Of a stretch of 64,000 nt of DNA, positions 2,383 to 30,301 are shown one piece after another. This stretch comes from a virus. The DNA lies in the IMG/VR virus record IMGVR_UViG_3300002143_000235, positions 62,001 to 126,000 of that record. One strand, written 5' to 3'. The position numbers and the translations under genes were made by a program. The notes beneath the pieces are model-generated. The model searched no databases, was not told where the DNA came from, and saw only the letters and a program-made list of their open reading frames with translations. How positions within the stretch are numbered: position 1 is the first letter of the stretch; every line of letters begins with the position of its first letter.

Positions 2383-3109
2383 ATTTTACTGTATTAATTT
2401 TTTCTATAAAGTTAAAAGGTGCTTTGTGTAATCTTTTATGATTTTCAATAGCATAAAGCGCTATGTATTCCGGAAAATGAGACATGATACATTTTTTAAG
2501 CATCTTACTAAAAGCCGGTTGATGATGCATATTTTTGTACCGTTCGTATGCCATCACCATAACTTCTTCACAAACTACACGATCTTTATCTTTATTTGAC
2601 AAAGCGTGAAATTTAGACTCGTCTAATTCAACTTCTTTTCCATCAGCAAGTACAAGTGTATAAGCTGGAATAGTATGAAGATATGTATGAAGAATATCGT
2701 GCTCATGCTCATCGTAATTGATAGCATTTGTGAAAAATTCTTCCTTATTCAATGCAAGATTACTTCTACGAACTTGTGGCAGTATTGTTTCCCAAAATGC
2801 TCTAAGTTCACGCATAATTGTAATATCAATCACACATCCTTTTTCAAGTAAAAATTGAAGATCAAATATATGTTTACTCCAATTAATATCCCAAAATAAA
2901 TGTGAAGCTTTGAGTGTTACAAGAAGATTTGGTGATAAATATCCTTCATCTTGGTATTTAAGAATAACTGGATTAAGTAAGTATTCAATTTCACGTGATT
3001 GAGGAAGATTGTCAACAGATGCAACAGCATAATCAATGTCTTTCGAGCATCGATTGAAATCTGGGAAGTAATATTTTATAGCTGTTGAACCTATGATAAC
3101 TTTCTTCAT
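2363..3109 (-). CDS. nucleotidyltransferase-like phage protein
   Basis: 248 residues. The N-terminus carries GSTAIKYYFPDF followed by KDIDY, the G-S plus D-x-D arrangement of the polymerase-beta nucleotidyltransferase superfamily. It continues with an LLNP and SHLFWDINW region that I associate with a conserved family in T4-like phages. Substrate unknown. The ATG at 3109 lies only about 5 bases downstream of an ATATTTG box, which suggests a leaderless message. Family placement rests on motif recall, not alignment. Confidence 0.7.
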   Translation of the reverse strand: MKKVIIGSTAIKYYFPDFNRCSKDIDYAVASVDNLPQSREIEYLLNPVILKYQDEGYLSPNLLVTLKASHLFWDINWSKHIFDLQFLLEKGCVIDITIMRELRAFWETILPQVRRSNLALNKEEFFTNAINYDEHEHDILHTYLHTIPAYTLVLADGKEVELDESKFHALSNKDKDRVVCEEVMVMAYERYKNMHHQPAFSKMLKKCIMSHFPEYIALYAIENHKRLHKAPFNFIEKINTVKYESVIV

Positions 3110-3114
3110 GTTGC

Positions 3115-3122
3115 AAATATTC
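3115..3122 (-). promoter_or_regulatory. TATTTG-type promoter, probably leaderless
   Basis: On the minus strand AATATTTG is followed by CAAC and then the ATG of the gene at 3109. The box is one base off the TAnnTTTG consensus. The T-rich stretch upstream is typical of the other promoters here. Confidence 0.45.
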
Positions 3123-3156
3123 GAAAAAAAAACGTATTACAAAAATATTTATAACA

Positions 3157-24778: not shown

Positions 24779-25249
24779 ATGGCAAACACAGACAACACAT
24801 GTAAAGATCTTGAGATCAAAAATCTCTATACTGAGAGTACAGACACACTTGGTGATATTTTGAACCTCCAAGCTGAAACACAGGAAAATATCTACGGATA
24901 CGATTTTAAAAATATGTCATTACGTGATGTAATGAATTTTTGGCATATGAATACACATGCAATGATTGATGAAATTCATGAGGCAACCGATGCACTTGGC
25001 GGTGTAAAAGATGGATCAGGTAGTGCAGTTTGGAAACGTTGGAAGAAAGATTTTGCATCATTCGAAAACAAAAAATTTTCAGACCTTTCAGAAGGTGATC
25101 AACTCGAATGTAAATTTGAGATCATTGATATGCTTCACTTCTTCATGAACTACGCAGCATCTATTGGTATGTCTGCTGAGGAAATGTACAACATGTACAT
25201 GGCAAAAAATGTAGAAAATAGAAATCGTCAGGCACGAGGAAATTATTAA
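24779..25249 (+). CDS. all-alpha dUTPase (dUTPase_2 / MazG-like)
   Basis: 156 residues from ATG at 24779, chosen over upstream non-ATG starts. Visible signatures: DEIHEATDALGG (metal-binding E-x2-E/D type), KFEIIDMLHFFMNYAASIGM (the E-x2-D motif) and the C-terminal N-R-x-R-Q-x-R-G-N-Y end typical of dimeric dUTPases. Converts dUTP to dUMP, preventing uracil incorporation and feeding dTMP synthesis. Confidence 0.85.
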   Translation: MANTDNTCKDLEIKNLYTESTDTLGDILNLQAETQENIYGYDFKNMSLRDVMNFWHMNTHAMIDEIHEATDALGGVKDGSGSAVWKRWKKDFASFENKKFSDLSEGDQLECKFEIIDMLHFFMNYAASIGMSAEEMYNMYMAKNVENRNRQARGNY

Positions 25250-25267
25250 TCATATGCTGTTAAAAAA

Positions 25268-25317
25268 TATAAAAATCCGGCCCATGTTCGCATGGTATGA
25301 CATATGGGTCGGATTTT
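25268..25317. terminator. terminator-like hairpin overlapping a coding segment
   Basis: AAAAATCCGGCCCAT / ATGGGTCGGATTTTT, 15 pairs with one G-U, with A and T runs on both sides. Confidence 0.7.
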
Positions 25318-25544
25318 TATCGATAAGGCAAAGAGTACAGCTTATTTCTTTCCAATCCCAACATTGGGATTGAAGATCAAGTGGGAGAAGCCAGTCGTGA
25401 TTGAACCAGTAATTCCTATCACACCTGATGATATTCGTACCAAATTTCTTCATTATATTGAAGAAATTTCAACACGTGAAACAGACCGACCGGATGCAAT
25501 TTCTGTATCTAGTGGTGTTGGAGTAGAATTCTTTAACATGCCTG

Positions 25545-25610
25545 AATTTAGACATAATGGTGTATTTGGAGCAGTGTGATATGCCTTAGATATACCATTA
25601 TGTCTAAATT
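25545..25610. repeat. perfect 17-bp inverted repeat with TGA in the loop
   Basis: AATTTAGACATAATGGT at 25545-25561 and its exact complement at 25594-25610; the 32-base loop holds the in-frame TGA and can pair further. Confidence 0.85.
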
Positions 25611-25768
25611 TTGATGTGTGGCAGTTATGCGGACAGTACAAGTGTATCAATATCTATATAAATCCATACCAAATAGGTGATAGTATCATCCACGAATGGA
25701 CGGATGGAAAACATATAAATACTGTTCCAGACCTCTTCACAGAAGAAAAAAAAATATAATTTTATAAT

Positions 25769-26683
25769 ATGAACAATTCAAACGTAACCGACTGGGGCAA
25801 AGTAAGACAACTATTTGAAATTGAAGTATCAAAGCTTTTCAAACGAAACAAAGCAATAGAAGTCATTCCAGAACATTTTTATGATCTATTTGATAAAATT
25901 CAGATGTATGGAACTAAATTCACTGCCAAGTCATACAGCATGACAGTTGTAAGACTTTCTTGCACATATTATGCTGATGGTTCTGCAAATTTTGGTGAAG
26001 GTAAAACACACAGATATAATCTGTATTTTACAAATCCTGATGCTGAATTTCAACTGATGGCTGAACAGTTATCAAACGATGAATTTTATTCTACTTTTCA
26101 TCATAATTATATTGATCTATGTGATGAACCTGGAGATAATTATGGCGGAAAAACAATCACACAAGCATCAATACCCGTAGCTAATTTTGAGCTATGTACT
26201 GGTTGTATAATCAAAGATGGTAATTCTATTATAAGTGAATATCATCTATCCGATGCAGAGATTGATAAAATGAAAATTAAATATGGTGGATTTGAACAGC
26301 ATAAACAATCTGTTTATACTAAAACTATAACTGCAGAGAATATTAAACAAAAAGTTTTAGAATTATTTGAATATACATTTGGACAAAGACTTTTTGTTGA
26401 TAAATTAACTGCTAAAGTAATTAAAGAATTACCTGAATTTCATACAAATTTTTGTGAAATGGAAGGTATTGATTCTACTATGGCAGAAAATCATATAGGT
26501 TATTATAAAGATATTCGTATTTATGAATTTCTTGAAGATGATCTTCAAAATTCTACGGGTCCTGAACCATTAGGATCAGGATTTTTTAATTGGTATGATG
26601 AAAACAAAGAAGACTCACAGCAATGTTGTGGATATATATTTGATGAGGATTATACTGAAGCATTAAAATTAATTTATGAATAA
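25769..26683 (+). CDS. hypothetical protein
   Basis: 304 residues, acidic, mixed alpha/beta, with a C-terminal FFNWYDENKEDSQQCCGYIF stretch. No family recognised. Its stop region overlaps the next start by eight bases. Confidence 0.75.
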   Translation: MNNSNVTDWGKVRQLFEIEVSKLFKRNKAIEVIPEHFYDLFDKIQMYGTKFTAKSYSMTVVRLSCTYYADGSANFGEGKTHRYNLYFTNPDAEFQLMAEQLSNDEFYSTFHHNYIDLCDEPGDNYGGKTITQASIPVANFELCTGCIIKDGNSIISEYHLSDAEIDKMKIKYGGFEQHKQSVYTKTITAENIKQKVLELFEYTFGQRLFVDKLTAKVIKELPEFHTNFCEMEGIDSTMAENHIGYYKDIRIYEFLEDDLQNSTGPEPLGSGFFNWYDENKEDSQQCCGYIFDEDYTEALKLIYE

Positions 26684-27001: not shown

Positions 27002-28489
27002 ATGATAGTAGATTACGAATACCTCAATGGCAAACTAATAGTGTCATACATTGACCCTAAAGGTAATATCAAATTCAAAAATTATCCATGGATGAATCCA
27101 ATGGATTGGAGAGTATGTTCCAATACTGATCCAGGAAGATCTGATAACTTCCGCACCTGGGATAAGAAACCAGTGAAATTAATGAGCACACGAAATCCTA
27201 CACGTTATGCTGTTTACGAATACTTCCACAAACTCAAACAAGAAGAGAAAGATGAAATATTCGCCTACAATGAGCCAAAGACTTATTTCTGTGATATTGA
27301 GGTAGAAATTACAAATGGTTTTCCTGAAGCTCATTTAGCTGAAAATAGAGTTACCGCGATCTGTTTTGTATTCGATCAGAAAATTCTATTAATGGGTATA
27401 AAAGAGATGCCTGATAGTTGGATTACTAAGATGGAAAAAGATATCAATGAATACTTTAAAGCATTTGATACCAAGTACACAATCGATTGGCAATTCTACA
27501 ATACAGAAAAAGAGATGCTTTTAGAGTTATTCAACGATCTTATTCCAAAAATGCCTGTAATTACTGGATGGAATTTCATTAACTATGACTGGGTTTATTT
27601 AGTAACACGTGCACGTAAATTAGGAATCAATCCAAACGTTGCATCACCAACCGGTAAATTGATCAAACCATGGAAAAAGAATGCTAACGAATTCAAACCA
27701 ACATTTGAAGAACTTCCTATGCATAGACTAGTAGTCGATTACATGGATATCTTTGGTAAATGGGATACATCAATCAAAATACGTGAAGCTGAAACATTAG
27801 ACTTTACCTCATCAAAAGTATTAGGAGTTAAGAAACTTGAATATAAAGGTTCACTTAAGGATTTATACGTAAACGATTACTATGGTTATATGCTTTATAA
27901 CTGTGTTGATACCGCGCTCGTACAATTGATACATAAGAAGCAACGTACATTAGATATCATGTTATCAATATCTAATCTTGCAAATATACAAATAGGCCAA
28001 TCACTTTCAGCTATTCGTGTAACCGAAGGTGTTTTCTTCCGAGAGTATTACGAACACGGAATTGTGATGTGTCGTCAAACAAGTATGTTCTCTGAATCTG
28101 GAAATGATCAAGCTGAGGAAATGGATGATTACGATGGTGGTTACGTTAAATTTCCAACTATTGGACTTTTTAGATGGATTTCAGTATTCGATTTTGCCTC
28201 GCTGTATCCTACTACTATGCGTCAGTTCAATATCGCACCTGAATCCTTCAAAGGACTCAAAATAAGCGATTCTGAGTCACTTTTAAACGGTGTGCGATAT
28301 CCATTAGAGAAAGATGATATTGTGCTCTTAAATGGAGCCGTATTCAAAAATGAAGAATCTAAAACTAAGATGAAGATTACACAAATCTTTAAAGATAGAA
28401 AAGTGAACAAAAATAGTGGTCTTGACTACAAGAAACAAGAACAACTCATGAAGATGTATCTACAAGATCGTAAAAAGAAAAGAGCATAA
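27002..28489 (+). CDS. 43: family B DNA polymerase, N-terminal half (T4 gp43-like)
   Basis: 495 residues. Exonuclease motifs: Exo I DIEVE (98-102), Exo II in GWNFINYDW (about 190), Exo III YNCVDTALV (about 300). Palm motif A is VFDFASLYPT (about 395) followed by RQFNIAPE as in T4 gp43 (RQVNISPE). The protein ends at QDRKKKRA, before the fingers motif B (NSLYG) and the catalytic motif C (DTDS), which are not found in the rest of this window. It is therefore half a polymerase; the C-terminal half is probably a separate gene elsewhere, as in the split gp43A/gp43B of some Aeromonas T4-like phages. Confidence 0.9.
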   Translation: MIVDYEYLNGKLIVSYIDPKGNIKFKNYPWMNPMDWRVCSNTDPGRSDNFRTWDKKPVKLMSTRNPTRYAVYEYFHKLKQEEKDEIFAYNEPKTYFCDIEVEITNGFPEAHLAENRVTAICFVFDQKILLMGIKEMPDSWITKMEKDINEYFKAFDTKYTIDWQFYNTEKEMLLELFNDLIPKMPVITGWNFINYDWVYLVTRARKLGINPNVASPTGKLIKPWKKNANEFKPTFEELPMHRLVVDYMDIFGKWDTSIKIREAETLDFTSSKVLGVKKLEYKGSLKDLYVNDYYGYMLYNCVDTALVQLIHKKQRTLDIMLSISNLANIQIGQSLSAIRVTEGVFFREYYEHGIVMCRQTSMFSESGNDQAEEMDDYDGGYVKFPTIGLFRWISVFDFASLYPTTMRQFNIAPESFKGLKISDSESLLNGVRYPLEKDDIVLLNGAVFKNEESKTKMKITQIFKDRKVNKNSGLDYKKQEQLMKMYLQDRKKKRA

Positions 28490-28490
28490 T

Positions 28491-28967
28491 ATGAAAACAC
28501 AAAAAATTGCAATGAATATTGTTAATCAATTGTATGATCTTGCAGACGTATCAGTTGATAAGAGACAAGCAATAAATGATCAAGCTGATAAATTTGTATC
28601 TGAAATGCTTGTTCAATTTTTACAATCTATTGTTAGTACAAAAGAGAAACCAAAAGAAGGTAAATATACCGATGTTGAATGCGCTGAAATAATGCAATCA
28701 CGTGGTTATACAAAACACCATACAGCAGGTACCACAACCGGTTGGAGTAAGTTAGTTGGTGAAATAGATGACCTTGATAGTATGTGGATATTTGCTGATG
28801 TTAATCATATAAATTCTACCATTGAATTGTCATGTGATCCTTTTAAAGGACTAATTCATTTGCGAAGTCCAGATCTTGCATTAGATCATCCACGATTTCA
28901 TTATTTTGAAGACAAATTGATTAGTTACATGAATGCTTGCAGATCAGTTCAACATGATCGATGTTAG
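28491..28967 (+). CDS. hypothetical protein with replaced C-terminus
   Basis: 158 residues, one base after the polymerase stop. The block HLRSPDLALDHPRFHYFE followed by DKLISYM recurs as a diverged remnant at 29787-29868. There the frame ends right after SYM, suggesting that the native end was SYM-stop and the last residues (NACRSVQHDRC) come from inserted DNA. Function unknown. Confidence 0.7.
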   Translation: MKTQKIAMNIVNQLYDLADVSVDKRQAINDQADKFVSEMLVQFLQSIVSTKEKPKEGKYTDVECAEIMQSRGYTKHHTAGTTTGWSKLVGEIDDLDSMWIFADVNHINSTIELSCDPFKGLIHLRSPDLALDHPRFHYFEDKLISYMNACRSVQHDRC

Positions 28968-29474
28968 GCGATTGTGCCTTTATTTAGATTTTTAAACTTT
29001 AAATTAATATAAAAATGAGTACAGAAAAACAAGATGGTGCAATTGATTTAACACCTAAAACAATTAAAGACAAGTCAAAATACAAATTGACAAATGCTGA
29101 TATTTCGGCAAATTATTTGAATGATAAATTTCATTTAATGATTAATGATTTCAAAGGCGCTTTTGTGTGTTGGGCTACAAAACAAAATCCAAATGAAACT
29201 TATGATGTAATTGCTGATGCTACACAAGCATACACAAAATACTTACAACAGCGATATTTCAAAACAAAGGATACTGTTATTGAAATGGATTGTGATTTAA
29301 TTAAAAAACTTACTGATGAAGATTTATTCATTGCTATTCCTGAAATATTAGCATTAAATGAAATGGAACCCGATTTTATTTGTTTGGGTGCTTTGTCAAG
29401 AAATGTGTTTTATGACATACTTCGCAGCCAAATCACTCAACCATTGTAGGGTGTCGCTTGGCATATCGCCTAAC
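28963..29474 (+). mobile_element. cassette-like insertion bounded by 10-bp inverted repeats
   Basis: GTTAGGCGAT at 28963-28972 and its exact complement ATCGCCTAAC at 29465-29474 enclose one gene. The two ends fit the GTTRRRY and RYYYAAC core sites of integron attC elements, and the following CGTTTTGCAACTTGGC is of a type I associate with Bacteroidota intergenic cassettes. No integrase is present. The inserted stretch as a whole probably extends to about 29786. Confidence 0.5.
29015..29449 (+). CDS. cassette-borne hypothetical protein
   Basis: 144 residues starting MSTEKQDGAIDL. Helical, with CDLIKKLTDEDLFIAIPEIL in the second half. Lies inside the inverted-repeat-bounded segment. No family recognised; possibly an accessory gene carried in from a host. 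Confidence 0.7.
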   Translation: MSTEKQDGAIDLTPKTIKDKSKYKLTNADISANYLNDKFHLMINDFKGAFVCWATKQNPNETYDVIADATQAYTKYLQQRYFKTKDTVIEMDCDLIKKLTDEDLFIAIPEILALNEMEPDFICLGALSRNVFYDILRSQITQPL

Positions 29475-29534
29475 GTTTTGCAACTTGGCTTAGTGCCGTT
29501 TAAACAGATAAATTAAATTAATAACACAAATATT

Positions 29535-29783
29535 ATGAGTACAGAAAATGATTGCGAAAAAGAAGAAACTAAGGCATTGAGCCAAATTGCTGTTAGCGGT
29601 AGTACTTGCTTTAGTAAAGATGCTTTTATGTTGGTAGAACATATTAACAACGATTCTGATGAAAAAGAATATGGCGATGTAATTGGAGAAACACAAGGTT
29701 ATTTTATTGTTAAACCACACCTAAGAAAAGAACAGAATCGTTGGTTAAAAGTGGATTGTAATGTGTTGGAGTATTACCGCTAA
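29535..29783 (+). CDS. second cassette-borne hypothetical protein
   Basis: 82 residues starting MSTENDCEKEE, similar in its first four residues to the previous gene. It ends at CGCTAAC, another near-RYYYAAC end, right before the remnant copy of the interrupted gene. Function unknown. Confidence 0.6.
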   Translation: MSTENDCEKEETKALSQIAVSGSTCFSKDAFMLVEHINNDSDEKEYGDVIGETQGYFIVKPHLRKEQNRWLKVDCNVLEYYR

Positions 29784-29785
29784 CT

Positions 29786-29868
29786 AATCCATTTACGTAG
29801 TCCAGATCTTGCATTAGACCATCCACGATTTAATTATTTTGAAAACAAACTGATTAGTTACATGTAGA
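29786..29868 (+). pseudogene. diverged 3' remnant of the gene at 28491
   Basis: In frame it reads HLRSPDLALDHPRFNYFENK and then LISYM-stop, matching residues 121-147 of the 28491 gene. Differences are mainly at third codon positions, so both copies evolved under selection before or after separation. No start codon. Confidence 0.8.
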
Positions 29869-29893
29869 ACTGTTTAACATCAATAAATTTATA

Positions 29894-30301
29894 ATGCAGA
29901 TTAAAAAAGGAACAACACGGATTGTATTTCTAATTGGTAAATACGCAATCAAATTTCCACGCATTCATCATAAATATCCTGGACATCGTTACAAAATGTT
30001 TTTACGCGGATTACTAGCCAATATAGATGAAAATTTTTGGTGGAAAAGCACATACAAGCGTGATAAATTATGTCCAGTTAAATTCAAATCACCTCTTGGA
30101 TTTTTTCTTGTAATGGATAGAGCTATCCCACTTAAAGAATCGGAATACAACAAAGAACAATTTGAAAAAGATTTTTTTGGTTTACCACTTGATAACAAGA
30201 TTGTAAATTTTGGAAAGATCGATAATCGCATTGTGTTAATTGATTATGCTGATAGTCGATATATGTGTAGTGATTGTTCTATGTGTTTCAAAAATAAATA
30301 A
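29894..30301 (+). CDS. small kinase-fold-like phage protein
   Basis: 135 residues. TTRIVFLIGKYAIKFPR (a beta hairpin ending in a lysine like the kinase N-lobe), GFFLVMDRAIPL (hinge-like) and NFGKIDNRIVLIDYAD (a D-Y-A/G turn like the kinase DFG) are in the order of a minimal protein-kinase fold. The catalytic loop is not visible, so activity is doubtful. Related small proteins occur in T4-like phages by recall. A terminator follows. Confidence 0.5.
   Translation: MQIKKGTTRIVFLIGKYAIKFPRIHHKYPGHRYKMFLRGLLANIDENFWWKSTYKRDKLCPVKFKSPLGFFLVMDRAIPLKESEYNKEQFEKDFFGLPLDNKIVNFGKIDNRIVLIDYADSRYMCSDCSMCFKNK

Follow-up and report, generated by a model that had tools for sequence, protein, structure and literature searches.

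In T4 gene 60, ribosome bypass involves matched take-off and landing codons separated by a gap of about 50 nt, with a stop following the take-off codon and a KKYK nascent-peptide signal about 30 residues before take-off (PMC11194080). Programmed -1 frameshifting requires a tandem slippery heptamer of the form X_XXY_YYZ, with a stimulatory structure that begins a few nucleotides past it, and the runs given in a review for bacterial transcriptional slippage are of 9 A or T (PMC5009743). The start codons of T4 e, soc, 49 and I-TevI sit in helices, and late transcripts of gene e that begin inside the structure escape it (PMC3014915). The first observations of quasipalindrome template switching, a mutational process, came from yeast CYC1 and T4 rIIB (PMC7202029), and template switching is also able to make hairpins de novo (PMC8794818).

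The locus studied here, at 25254-25759 on the + strand, lies in a 64,000-nt window (bases 62001-126000) on a contig of 313,708 bp from a giant bacterial virus. The first-pass annotation had described a gene with a -1 frameshift and an in-frame TGA, each framed by a hairpin, and had raised both decay and recoding as explanations. We think it probable that the locus is a damaged, decaying or truncated copy of a widespread small phage gene, and that its palindromes arose by templated inverted-repeat mutation rather than as ribosome signals.

The locus and the FAWYD protein family

The locus is situated between a dCTP pyrophosphatase gene (24779-25249, + strand; T4 gp56/MazG-like, phrog_173 E 1.9e-19, and 1397 phage records by tblastn) and a gene for a 304-aa orphan protein (25769-26683), which is itself upstream of the DNA polymerase gene. 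The polymerase of this phage is split, with its N-terminal half at 27002-28489 in the window and its C-terminal half approximately 150 kb away, at G000:C1:241574-242827. A sister contig from IMG sample 3300002138, IMGVR_UViG_3300002138_000147, showed no difference from the window across 25200-25800, and the identity between the two runs for 8.4 kb and covers the whole locus. It was also the sole match with synteny through the next gene. From 28718 on (compared over 28718-30250), the sister contig (L001) shows several per cent divergence and indels, which marks a mosaic boundary. As the second contig is identical across the locus, a one-off assembly error is unlikely, and assembly error was set aside as the source of the lesions. 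The 8.4 kb of identity indicates that the assembly is reproducible, but it is silent on the age of the lesions.

The readings PMFAWYDIWVGF and, downstream of it, FIDKAKSTAYFFPIP, both within 25254-25759, were found to be members of one small phage protein family of about 45 aa. The first match to this family was a 49-aa protein of Chryseobacterium phage MA9V-3 (E 1e-4), and 65 further IMG/VR loci, sister contig excluded, carry members of it, with a best identity to the window copy of 57-59%. The conserved core of the family is MKIRPIFAWYDLWIGAFYDRxKRRLYVFPIPxxG, its motif can be written M-K-I-[RK]-P-[IM]-FAWYD-x-W-[IV]-G-x-[FY]-x-D-[KR], and most relatives stop shortly past the core. Searches with the family (L024-L089; 25254-25403 in the window) found no model for it in Pfam, NCBIfam or PHROGs, and the analysis thus exposes a small, very conserved phage protein family that is missing from the libraries searched.

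The window copy (25254-25403) carries the family core, but split over two frames, and an uninterrupted frame from an ATG through the core was not found in it. Frame 0, from the ATG at 25254, reads MLLKNIKIRPMFAWYDIWVGF and then continues out of frame (LSIRQ...) as far as a TGA at 25371, so that the sequence and the family alignment define a 39-aa ORF1 (25254-25373, + strand). Homology to the family resumes in the -1 frame, with FIDKAKSTAYFFPIPTLGLKIKW, and this frame is open until the TGA at 25577-25579. In addition, the ATG with which the family starts is ATA in the window (25269), where an alternative ATG is located 15 nt upstream. Nearly all of the 65 relatives are unbroken at the point where the window copy breaks, and their alignment showed the window copy to be one base short there, within GGA TTTTT (25311-25318, + strand). 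The first-pass annotation had placed a -1 shift in the T5 run (25314-25318). The family match in two frames upholds the break itself, but not the T5 run as its exact site, since relatives show both GFF(Y/W)D and GIFID (L025, L026) and the lost base may have been anywhere in GGA-TTTTT, 25311-25318.

Two other members of the family, L078 (~3000-3123) and L089 (~2875-2995), were found to have an in-frame TAG without any hairpin, and the genes adjoining these two loci gave no sign that TAG is read as sense. These TAG codons indicate that the family gene has been broken in other phages too. Taken together, an altered start codon (ATG to ATA) and a lost base within a conserved 45-aa family, along with nonsense codons in two of its members, support decay or truncation, in line with the earlier view that two lesions suggest a decaying gene.

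Hairpin 1 and the start of ORF2

Hairpin 1 (25269-25320, + strand) is a terminator-like structure with 17-nt arms and an 18-nt spacer, and it takes in the ORF2 ATG and the frame break as well as the beginning of the family motif. Its arms, at 25269-25285 and 25304-25320, are complementary at 16 of 17 positions and fold with -26.4 kcal/mol (z -6.3), in agreement with the original description of a terminator-like hairpin enclosing the frame break. Six inverted repeats of such quality were counted in the 64 kb, two of them at this locus, and four shuffles yielded 0, 0, 2 and 0, which places the two hairpins beyond chance. When the same 69 nt were folded in about 55 distinct relatives, z was approximately 0 in most, compared with -6.5 in the window, and the best relative (z -3.9) owed its value to a different fold. 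No N-terminal hairpin conserved across the FAWYD family was found among these relatives and, as none of them had a matching structure, hairpin 1 is specific to this lineage.

The 5' arm of hairpin 1 contains CGG CCC, two codons that are among the rarest in the phage (0.4 and 0.5 per 1000 codons), which suggests that pairing, and not codon choice, shaped this arm. Selection as a transcription terminator would explain these rare codons too. The hairpin has features of an intrinsic terminator, with a G+C stem that ends in T5AT and begins 20 nt past the dCTPase stop, and is thus a putative terminator; it was not listed by the terminator scan because its 18-nt spacer is longer than the loop limit of the scan.

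These features bear on the main rival to decay, namely that the 91-aa ORF2 works and carries a terminator at its beginning. ORF2 (25304-25579, + strand; MGRIFIDKAK...GVFGAV) would then be an intact, shortened gene, hairpin 1 would end transcription of the dCTPase gene as an intrinsic terminator that overlaps the start of ORF2, hairpin 2 would be a 3'-end structure at the ORF2 stop, and there would be no coding after the TGA. The distance of hairpin 1 from the dCTPase stop fits this arrangement, as do its G+C stem and A/T tracts, which resemble those of the other putative terminators in the window. The codon usage of ORF2 is typical of the phage (41st percentile of coding windows), so that a working truncated gene is possible, and the 91-aa product from the ATG at 25304 may still be made. 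However, the most strongly conserved stretch of the family, FAWYDxWxG, is missing from ORF2, whose ATG is enclosed in hairpin 1. Moreover, the hairpin arms encode the family motif, which argues that they were formerly coding. On balance, we regard an intact ORF2 as unlikely, though worth serious consideration.

The location of the ATG at 25304 in the 3' arm, with TATAAAAA in the 5' arm, also brings to mind a start-codon switch. Early transcripts that read through would have the ORF2 start hidden by hairpin 1, and a shorter, hairpin-free mRNA would come from a late promoter in the 5' arm. The T4 genes e, soc, 49 and I-TevI are a precedent for such a switch (PMC3014915), and the window resembles them in having a start codon within a stable helix; in addition, head genes of the phage are preceded by a TTRATATATAAWAA motif. 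Unlike in the T4 genes, the match in the window to a promoter that would start transcripts within the 5' arm is weak, as the site upstream of ORF2 scores 6.0, a value also reached by 6% of random 70-nt stretches, whereas the 11 defining sites of the motif score 11.9-16.4. We hold a switch of this type to be very improbable.

The putative late-promoter motif TTRATATATAAWAA was identified upstream of 32721, 41073 and 51383 (-) and of 16789 and 58742 (+), mostly 30-45 nt ahead of the start codon and including several head genes; 11 of 73 genes have it, versus 0.7% of random stretches of 70 nt. Another promoter-like block, longer than this motif and reading TATATTTGTATTGTTCAATTAATAA, is present upstream of 7128, 8233 and 10458 (-) and of 30365 and 49673 (+), sometimes after a terminator-like hairpin. 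Its likeness to the Bacteroidota TAnnTTTG -7 element suggests a Bacteroidota host.

Hairpin 2 and the in-frame TGA

Hairpin 2 (25543-25612, + strand) has 29 RNA pairs and an 8-nt loop, with 21-nt arms at 95% and a folding energy of -35.4 kcal/mol (z -9.6). The in-frame TGA (25577-25579, + strand) is in its loop, as had been reported, but the perfect 17-bp repeat to which that loop was assigned proved to be just the core of the longer 29-pair helix. A search of Rfam returned nothing but a chance microRNA match (E 0.44). Past the TGA, the frame does stay open for 59 codons to a TAA, as the first reading of the sequence had it (25580-25759, + strand). An extension of this length has a chance of roughly 1% at this composition, by a rough estimate, which counts against ORF2 as an intact gene. 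Unlike ORF2, this frame is only weakly coding-like, with a codon score under that of every coding window of its length and reached by 2.2% of off-frame windows. Based on this poor score, the TGA may be the true end, as an intact ORF2 would require, and TGA serves this phage as a normal stop, ending 7 of 65 genes with short in-frame extensions. An alternative code with TGA reassigned was ruled out by these same genes. Neither the ORF2 C-terminus nor the post-TGA part was present in any relative from phages, IMG/VR or GTDB genomes, and AlphaFold modeling of the read-through frame, without relatives, gave a pLDDT of 33 and was unusable.

The combination of the two breaks with two stems had led to the suggestion of programmed recoding, in which the hairpins would guide ribosomes through a -1 shift at the T5 run and later past the TGA, by read-through or bypass. 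The -1 frame does carry the homologous continuation, and the TGA is right after a GTG (25574), with a second GTG (25616) past the hairpin and a 39-nt gap between them. The locus is therefore like T4 gene 60 in having a stop right after a possible take-off codon, in a stem-loop, and a matching codon past a gap. However, A_TTT_TTA, the slip site, does not have the tandem heptamer form, and the P-site codon would re-pair on ATT. Hairpin 1 contains this slip site, ending at 25320, rather than lying downstream of it, and T5 is too short for transcriptional slippage. By a rough estimate, chance alone would place a GTG within 20 nt of the hairpin in about one case out of six, and the GTG pair is likely fortuitous. 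The region ahead of the take-off reads IEEISTRETDRPDAIS and has no basic motif resembling KKYK. The locus also differs from gene 60 in that its stop is in the loop of a long A+U-rich helix, its gap is 39 nt, it is without the nascent-peptide signal, its downstream frame is poorly coding and the arrangement is conserved in no relative. The first-pass annotation had named beforehand homologues lacking the downstream part as evidence against recoding, and no relative was found to have that part or either hairpin. With no slippery heptamer, a short T5 run, TGA as a normal stop and no conserved hairpin among the ~55 distinct relatives, recoding or bypass was not borne out, and we consider it very improbable.

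The 5' arm of hairpin 2 was found to be common to another gene of this phage, at G000:C1:159855. This sister segment is in frame within a 1004-aa ORF (G000:C1:157361-160373) that probably encodes a virion protein, judging by its repetitive composition and its neighbours; the ORF had no family match, and its relatives were confined to the sister contig. The codon of the putative virion gene aligned with the TGA is GGA. The 5' arms of the two segments have 28 of 29 bases the same, 12 mismatches and two gaps were counted over the loop and 3' arm, and almost all of the 3'-arm changes within the stem strengthen pairing in the window copy. The virion-gene sister keeps 25 of the 29 pairs in register, which was matched by 2 of 2000 shuffles, and this makes a quasipalindrome plausible as the starting point. 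Further matches to hairpin 2 in the genome were weaker (14-17 nt) and were not matching hairpins.

A single phage thus has the 70-nt palindromic segment twice, at 25543-25612 and at G000:C1:159855, in genes that are unrelated but read it in the same frame, and the hairpin 2 3' arm could base-pair with the virion-gene mRNA over 27 of 30 nt. We considered two roles for the segment, as a small mobile coding palindrome comparable to the Rickettsia palindromic elements or as an RNA that regulates the virion gene through pairing of its 3' arm, and find either role improbable.

Proposed template switching and its precedents

The favored explanation, a decaying or truncated copy with palindromes produced by template switching, would involve a small FAWYD gene that became fused, in the window lineage, to an orphan C-terminal region. 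Its lesions would be the change of the family start from ATG to ATA, the one-base loss at 25311-25318 and the in-frame TGA at 25577. In quasipalindrome-associated template switching, a partial inverted repeat would be replicated with one arm as template for the other, turning the second arm into the reverse complement of the first; such an event would perfect the palindrome and could alter frame or codons. Both hairpins look derived, and the one-sided divergence of hairpin 2 towards better pairing is the trace that arm-to-arm copying would be expected to leave. Mutations of this kind also occur in E. coli thyA and lacZ reporters. Since no ancestor or intact close relative of the gene was found in phages, IMG/VR or GTDB genomes, we infer the template-switch step and the order of events, rather than observe them, and the same applies to the loss of function.

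If this explanation is correct, stems at gene lesions need not mean recoding, as a palindrome and a broken frame can both come from one mutational process. Signals of the type "hairpin plus frameshift" in phage genomes should be checked against relatives.

The locus shares with the quasipalindrome mutations of T4 rIIB and yeast CYC1 the near-perfect short inverted repeats at a one-base frame change with clustered substitutions, and the changes in one arm that follow the other arm. It differs from them in that the ancestral quasipalindrome was not recovered, and hairpin 2 was compared with a sister segment in another gene and not with an allele. The de novo template-switch hairpins of Monttinen and Loytynoja (2022) are similar in that they, too, are long new stems formed by reverse-complement repeats and missing from relatives; those hairpins are in mammalian microRNA loci and rRNA, whereas the hairpins described here are in a phage protein-coding gene.
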